19,559 nt of DNA. Source: an uncultured Oscillospiraceae bacterium (GTDB taxonomy: Bacteria; Bacillota_A; Clostridia; Oscillospirales; Acutalibacteraceae). Under the pieces are notes generated by a model that saw only the letters and a list, made by a program, of their open reading frames with translations, ran no database searches and had not been told where the DNA came from. Every line of letters begins with the position of its first letter. Positions within the stretch are counted from its first letter, which is position 1. The stretch lies in assembly GCA_900554165.1 (NCBI GenBank), contig USGR01000002.1, forward strand, positions 1-19,559, given 5' to 3'. Of the stretch, positions 15,589 to 17,514 are shown piece by piece. Position numbers and translations under genes: made by a program.

Positions 15589-17514
15589 CTATACATCAAG
15601 ATTTTGAACATATACCGCATTCTCTTCAATAAATTTGCGGCGTGGCTCTACCTCGTCACCCATAAGCACGTGAAATACATTGTCCGCCTTTTCAGCGTCC
15701 TCAAGTGTTACCTTAAGCATCGTACGGAATTCCGGATTCATCGTCGTGTCCCATAGCTGCTCGGCGTCCATTTCACCAAGACCTTTATAACGCTGAATGT
15801 CTAAATTACCACCAAGTTCCTTCATTATTTTATCTCTTTCTTGGTCGGAATAAGCATAATAATGTGTTTTACCTTTTGTTAAACGATATAATGGCGGCTG
15901 AGCAATATAAATATTTCCGTTTTCAATCAATGGACGCATAAAACGGAAGAAAAATGTAAGCAGCAAAGTACGAATGTGAGAACCGTCAACGTCAGCATCG
16001 GCCATAATAATTACTTTTCCGTAACGAAGTTTTTCCAAATCAAATTCTTCACCAATGCCGCAGCCCAAAGCAGTTACAACCGGCATTAATTTTTCGTTTC
16101 CGTATACTTTATCAAGCCTTGCTTTTTCAACGTTCAGCATTTTACCCCAAAGCGGTAAAATAGCCTGAATTCTTCTATCTCTTCCGCCTTTTGCGGAACC
16201 TCCCGCAGAGTCACCCTCTACAATATAGAGTTCAGATTCTTCCGGATTTTTTGACTGACAGTCTGCCAATTTTCCCGGAAGTGCTGCAGATTCCAAAGCG
16301 GATTTACGCCGAACCATATCTTTTGCTTTTCTAGCAGCTTCTCTGGCACGGGAAGCTGCTAAAGCTTTATCAAAAATAGCACGGGCAGTTGCAGGATTTT
16401 CTTCCAAATAAGTTGAAAGTTTGTCATTCACCATATTGCTGACAAGCCCGCTTATTTCTGTATTACCCAATTTTGATTTTGTTTGTCCCTCAAATTGTGC
16501 ATCTTTTACTTTAATACTGATAACAACAGTCAAACCTTCCCTGACGTCATCTCCTGTCAGATTTTTGTCGCTGTCTTTCAGCAAATTATATTTTCTGGCG
16601 TAATCATTCATAACACGGGTCAAACTACGCTTAAAACCTTCTTCATGGGTACCGCCGTCTGTAGTATGAATATTGTTAGCAAAGGATAAAATCAATTCAT
16701 TATAACTGTCGTTATACTGCATTGCAACTTCTGCTGTTGCTTGGTCGTCATCTGCAACTGTAGAAAAATGAATAATATCCGGATGTACCAATTCAACTGC
16801 TTTCTTTTTATTTAAATACTCTACAAAGCTGCTAATTCCGCCTTCATAACAGAAATTTTCACATATGATATTATCCGGATCTCTTTCATCGCTGATTTGA
16901 ATATGAATACCGGCATTTAAAAATGCTTGTTCGCGCAGACGAGTTTTTAATATTTCAAAATCAAATTCTGTTGTTTCTTTAAAAATCTCCGCATCCGGTT
17001 TAAATCGTACCAGTGTACCGGTTTTCTCTGTTTTTCCTACAATTTCCAAATTTGTTTTAATATTGCCGCGCTCGAATCTTTGAGTATAAATATCGCCGTC
17101 TTTATAAATTTCAATTTCCAGCCATTCTGAAAGTGCATTTACTACAGAGGCACCTACACCATGCAAACCACCGGAAACTTTATAACCGCCACCGCCAAAT
17201 TTACCACCTGCATGTAGTACTGTATACACAACGGTTGCAGCAGGAATTCCCATTTTAGGATGTTTTCCTACAGGAATACCACGGCCGTTATCAATAACAC
17301 AAATAATATTATCAGGCAATATTTTTACTTCAATTTTATCACAAAATCCTGCTAAAGCTTCGTCAATACCATTATCTACAATTTCATAAACAAGATGATG
17401 CAGACCGCGGGGACCTGTCGAACCTATGTACATACCCGGTCTTTTACGTACTGCTTCTAATCCTTCTAAAACTTGTATCTGGTCCGCTTCATAATTTTCA
17501 GCAGGCTGATTCAT
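15589..17514 (-). CDS. gyrB: DNA gyrase subunit B (mosaic gene)
   Basis: ATPase and TOPRIM subunit of gyrase. From the ATG at 17514 the product has 641 residues, close to B. subtilis GyrB. Seen: [14 protein letters not shown] (GHKL ATP site with the catalytic-type Glu/Asn), [21 protein letters not shown] (glycine-rich lid), [25 protein letters not shown] (TOPRIM Glu), [12 protein letters not shown] (TOPRIM DxD metal site), and [15 protein letters not shown] near the end. Start choice: ATG 17514 has GGAG 9 bases before it; TTG 17529 has GGAGGG with 7-base spacing and is an alternative; a TTG at 17553 lacks any ribosome binding site. Codon style changes within the gene near 15,740-15,800. Residues up to about 575-585 are AT-rich with ATT isoleucine; the last 60-70 codons match gyrA and the left side. 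Confidence 0.95.
15740..15800. other. Composition and codon-usage breakpoint inside gyrB
   Basis: Left of this point the coding style is GC-richer with ATA isoleucine: all nine Ile codons in two sampled gyrA stretches (15361-15463, 14281-14340) are ATA. Right of it isoleucine is mostly ATT: seven of nine in samples at 17281-17340 and 17641-17700, with one ATA and one ATC. The break lies in the segment encoding [20 protein letters not shown], one of the most conserved parts of GyrB. The reading frame is intact across it. Confidence 0.65.

Follow-up and report, generated by a model that had tools for sequence, protein, structure and literature searches.

Chimeric contigs that combine different species are the closest described counterpart of the locus considered here. 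In the portion of the simulation study PMC3100316 that was considered, chimeric contigs were noticeable even in the simplest simulated communities, and sequence similarity was suggested as the chief cause of those formed between species. As judged from sequence comparison, the window, i.e., the whole 19,559-nucleotide stretch that was analyzed, is very probably an inter-genus chimeric contig from metagenome assembly, and the hybrid gyrase gene that it carries is almost certainly not a real gene. With respect to the listed DNA gyrase subunit B proteins, each part of the window GyrB is identical to one of them (P0015 for one part, P0122 and P0123 for the other), whereas the pairing of these parts is absent from the 238 other listed proteins. 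The parts of the window are collected in Table 1.

Table 1. Parts of the window, with their coordinates and the evidence for their assignment
Feature	Coordinates	Strand	Evidence
Putative left-parent DNA, from a relative of Candidatus Timburyella (genes for a solute-binding protein, biotin ligase, P-type ATPase, rRNA adenine dimethylase and dCMP deaminase; gyrA; last 59 codons of gyrB including the stop)	1..15765		Collinear with Candidatus Timburyella stercoris (L005, G001:C7); Pfam for five genes
gyrA, left parent	12962..15463	-	96% protein identity to both Timburyella-genus genomes, 64-66% to three right-genus genomes
gyrB C-terminal end, left parent (residues 584-641 of 641, plus stop)	15589..15765	-	0/58 differences to P0122 and P0123; 18/58 to P0015
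Join, 30 bases encoding ten residues	15766..15795	-	Window agrees with both parental proteins
gyrB N-terminal part, right parent	15796..17514	-	ATG start; 0/572 differences to P0015, 209 or 210/572 to P0122 (depending on the alignment)
Right-parent genes: two small zinc-ribbon-like proteins, RemA-like protein, recF-like gene	17563..19559	-	Match to G629:C28; order as in L046

Codon style and the position of the break

According to the original prediction, gyrB is a mosaic of two codon styles, which meet in frame inside a conserved 16-residue segment. A change-point scan of the 2123 codons of the minus-strand genes between 12962 and 19559, with at least 60 codons demanded on either side, put the best synonymous-codon change point at 15768-15771; its log-likelihood gain was 239, as compared with a mean of 32 and a maximum of 42.7 in 60 within-amino-acid shuffles. 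This check of codon usage bears out the abrupt change inside gyrB, and the break does lie in frame, within the KGLGEMD segment. To the left of the break (gyrA and the gyrB tail), Ile is encoded by ATA, ATT, and ATC 60, 11, and 2 times, respectively (ATA in 60 of 73), and to the right 19, 70, and 7 times (ATT in 70 of 96), with a GC3 of 0.523 on the left and 0.193 on the right.

Codon usage within gyrB alone was rejected as a locator of the break, its best split falling at 15996 (gain 44.3, exceeded in 1 of 200 shuffles). This weak and misplaced split is due to the shortness of the gyrB tail, of which 60 codons, including one for Ile, were counted in the gyrB-only scan. The break was positioned by protein identity to the two parental GyrB proteins. 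Moreover, the prediction that everything to the left is GC-richer and uses ATA holds for gyrA and the gyrB tail but not for the left side as a whole, which GC fails to divide cleanly because the region at about 2-3.7 kb has only 30-36% GC. ATA is likewise not dominant in every left gene, the ATA/ATT/ATC counts being, for instance, 15/9/3 for the solute-binding protein and 8/7/1 for the dCMP deaminase.

Parental GyrB proteins and a lone hybrid

Two GyrB protein searches (best 120 of 7996 and best 120 of 7973) provided 239 GyrB proteins altogether. P0015, which is found on 52 contigs, the longest of 1.96 Mb, and belongs to a MAG labelled Clostridium sp., is identical to the window GyrB throughout residues 1-583 and deviates from it at 18 of the 58 residues past the join (584-641). 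P0122 and P0123 (9 and 7 contigs, the longest of 258 kb), which came from the search with the GyrB C-terminal region alone, are identical to it in 69 of 69 residues (573-641) and differ in about 210 of 572 before the join. Both parental GyrB proteins thus exist whole, without the join, and related genomes keep an unbroken order.

The window's own GyrB, P0001, is present on one contig, the window itself. The other 119 proteins in the best 120 of 7996 differ from P0001 at 0-10 positions of residues 1-572 and at 16-18 of residues 584-641, and a second hybrid, defined by at most 30 differences in the former region together with at most 6 in the latter, was not found among the 238 other proteins of the two listings (best 120 of 7996 and of 7973). 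A second copy of the hybrid would rank at the top of the first listing; among the best 120 of 7996, the hybrid gyrB occurs on the window contig and in no further independent assembly or isolate. No reciprocal hybrid was seen among the 239 listed proteins either, which carries little weight, as the searches were not aimed at one.

Separate trees of the two GyrB parts, proposed as a check of the original prediction, were built with FastTree from 33 sequences and are incongruent, each siding with a different parent. In the tree of residues 1-571, the window groups with P0015 (identical rows, with no support value), then with P0026 (support 0.79) and, on adding P0023, at 0.903, while in that of residues 584-641 it groups with P0122, P0123, P0125, and P0126 (support 0.975; 58 columns).

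Relatives and gene order of the two flanks

In a GyrA scan of genome contigs, two of 24 loci reached 96% protein identity, one in Candidatus Timburyella stercoris (L005) and one in a further genome (L006); the remaining 22 had 46-71%. Over its first 16.7 kb or so, the window is collinear with L005 and the corresponding genome contig (G001:C7), at 82-85% nucleotide identity and with gaps at 2017-2652 and 5845-6143, and a DNA search with the left side in the genus sample gave 85-86% in 2 of 2 genomes. The match to L005 runs about 900 bases past the join, and this extension can be taken as ordinary gyrB homology, because protein identity to L005 and L006 falls there: it amounts to 86-100% over the last 54 residues of a 654-residue frame, which starts at an alternative TTG at 17553 and adds 13 residues, and to 35-88% per 40 residues before the join, with 48-52% in the divergent N-terminus. 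In a GyrA protein search, nothing above 96% identity was found among the matches listed, where the window's own GyrA is also missing, and the parental GyrA is therefore not tied to P0122 and P0123.

On the right side, the whole of 15780-19559 (3780 bases) aligns with G629:C28, at 89% nucleotide identity. G629 was the best match in the family sample, at 89% (4 of 398 genomes matched, E <= 1e-290), and nothing better was found in its genus (3 of 6 genomes); the best identity was 72% in the order sample (352 of 394 genomes matched, E <= 0.001) and also 72% in searches of two genera (2 of 11 and 1 of 1 genomes, E <= 1e-250). The right parent would be an uncultured bacterium, and some of the MAGs with closely related GyrB proteins bear the label Acutalibacteraceae; the name given to this side is based on the labels of near relatives, Acutalibacteraceae bacterium and Clostridium sp. 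The parental species were not found as DNA in the sampled genomes, the nearest being 89% (right) and 82-86% (left) identical, so that the parents are identified through proteins. Viral contigs with GyrB (4 loci, 48-71% identity) were of no use. By nucleotide collinearity and GyrB identity, the two parts of the window trace to different organisms, close to Candidatus Timburyella on the left and to G629 on the right, which supports the expectation that, in an artefact, the genes on the two sides would come from different species.

The neighborhood of gyrB and gyrA was originally described as normal on both sides, but the short spacing of the two genes is found in the left genus and not in the right one. 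The spacing between both genes is 125 bases in the window and 89 and 117 bases in 2 of 2 Timburyella-genus genomes. In the right genus, there is room for three intervening genes in 3 of 3 genomes examined: they have 228, 187, and 181 codons in G629 (L052). The first two ORFs of this interval have 230 and 187 codons in both G727 (L053) and G566 (L054); the third has at least 183 codons in G727, where the stretch ends before it does, and up to 241 codons in G566, where it overlaps the second as listed. The window lacks these three genes. Upstream of gyrB, the window and L046 alike contain recF-like, RemA-like, and two small zinc-ribbon-like genes, while only about 210-300 bases separate recF from gyrB in the two Timburyella-genus genomes, an interval too small for the RemA-like and the two zinc-ribbon-like genes. 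Thus, the contig obeys the layout of one lineage until the join and that of the other after it.

Within the right part, the RemA-like protein is above the Pfam cut-off, the recF-like gene, which is cut off at the window end, has a sub-threshold SMC_N match only, and the zinc-ribbon-like proteins, named by eye, have no Pfam family above cut-off. The latter, encoded at 17563-18572 between gyrB and the RemA-like gene, seem by eye to contain membrane segments. Among the gyrB-gyrA intervening genes of the right genus (L052:7546-9408, L053:12166-13998, L054:9958-11805), two in G629 also look membrane-bound by eye. In the left part, about 640 bases at 2017-2652, which include an 86-aa ORF (2101-2361), show no similarity to their counterpart of about 600 bases in the otherwise collinear G001:C7. 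The 267-aa protein encoded at 5510-6313 has an extended low-complexity center, and its ends resemble those in L005 (16543-17349) and L006 (18561-19274).

The join and its origin

The 30 bases of the join show one mismatch in L046, one in L048, and three in L047, from the right genus, and one in L005 and six in L006, from the left genus; the single mismatches of L046 and L005 concern different bases. When 19 kb of L052 (G629) and 20 kb of L005 were compared on both strands, the longest exact match was a 23-mer located at the join, followed by two 18-mers, both elsewhere in gyrB. The same 23-mer, then 16 bases, is shared by window 15766-19559 and L005, and window 1-15795 shares 29 bases (15767-15795), then 15, with L052, although this 29-base match is not independent, as the right parent itself may have supplied these bases of the window. 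Exact sharing at the join is seen between the nearest relatives (L052 and L005, 23 bases), and the more distant L006 and L053 differ: L052 and L006 share 17-mers elsewhere and just a 15-mer at the join, the right side of the window has no match of at least 15 bases in L006, and its left side shares a 16-mer and a 15-mer with L053 elsewhere, none at the join. Of the 61 loci examined, 10 contain the first 23 bases of the word; several of these 10 are copies of the same genomes and others belong to further genera. The Ile codon adjoining the word, ATT at 15798 in the window and ATA in both L005 and L006, suggests where the join ends on the other side.

Two uncultured Clostridia-type bacteria, probably present in one sample, could have in common, within the ten gyrB codons of the join, a DNA word that reaches about 30 bases at most and would be exact in the parents themselves. 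An assembler with a short k-mer or overlap could take the shared word as one path, which would exit the gyrB of the right parent and enter that of the left parent, with an in-frame, fictitious hybrid GyrB as the outcome; the join would then be made by the assembler, and not by a cell or a library reaction. Such an assembly chimera is favored because there are two parental proteins, one hybrid contig, a word shared by the nearest genomes, and a gene order proper to each flank, all of which supports the proposal that an assembler joined two organisms at a conserved stretch.

Inter-genus homologous recombination, also considered in the original prediction, would have given a Timburyella-like chromosome a foreign recF side and a hybrid gyrase that still works. 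A homology-driven exchange would also preserve the frame and place the join in a shared word, but it is a very unlikely source of the window. The exchange would need extreme recency, as neither part has a single amino-acid change with respect to a known protein (583/583 and 69/69 residues). The presence of the hybrid on a single contig, with both parents on many, also speaks against it, and no specific evidence points to it. Moreover, exact words of at least 15 bases common to the two genera over about 20 kb are few (4 for L052 and L005, 6 for L052 and L006), and the collinearity of the right flank with G629 persists as far as the window reaches, so that a return to the left parent is not seen. 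A living bacterium that owes its hybrid GyrB and its recF side to a recent natural exchange, and whose rarity has kept it out of other assemblies, is correspondingly highly improbable. A chimeric molecule formed in the laboratory by library amplification or ligation, then sequenced and assembled, would be expected to give an identical join, and template switching also favors short identical words, but this origin is the least credible, since the true sequence continuing each side would as a rule outnumber a rare molecule, and a collision of k-mers would require no extra step.

If the window is an assembly chimera, the DNA of two organisms is joined and the genes on its two sides cannot be assigned to one organism; the contig would put the recF side and most of the gyrB of one organism into the genome of another. 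The fictitious GyrB (P0001) has entered a protein collection and, as gyrB serves as a marker gene, joins like this one can mislead trees and binning. A cheap check for chimeras would be to take the nearest genomes of each side, find their longest common exact word, and see whether the join falls there. The window would be a clean example of a chimeric contig. Simulated reads were counted in PMC3100316, whereas the case of the window is inferred from parental sequences; like the inter-species chimeric contigs described there, it would be one contig from two organisms with resembling sequences.
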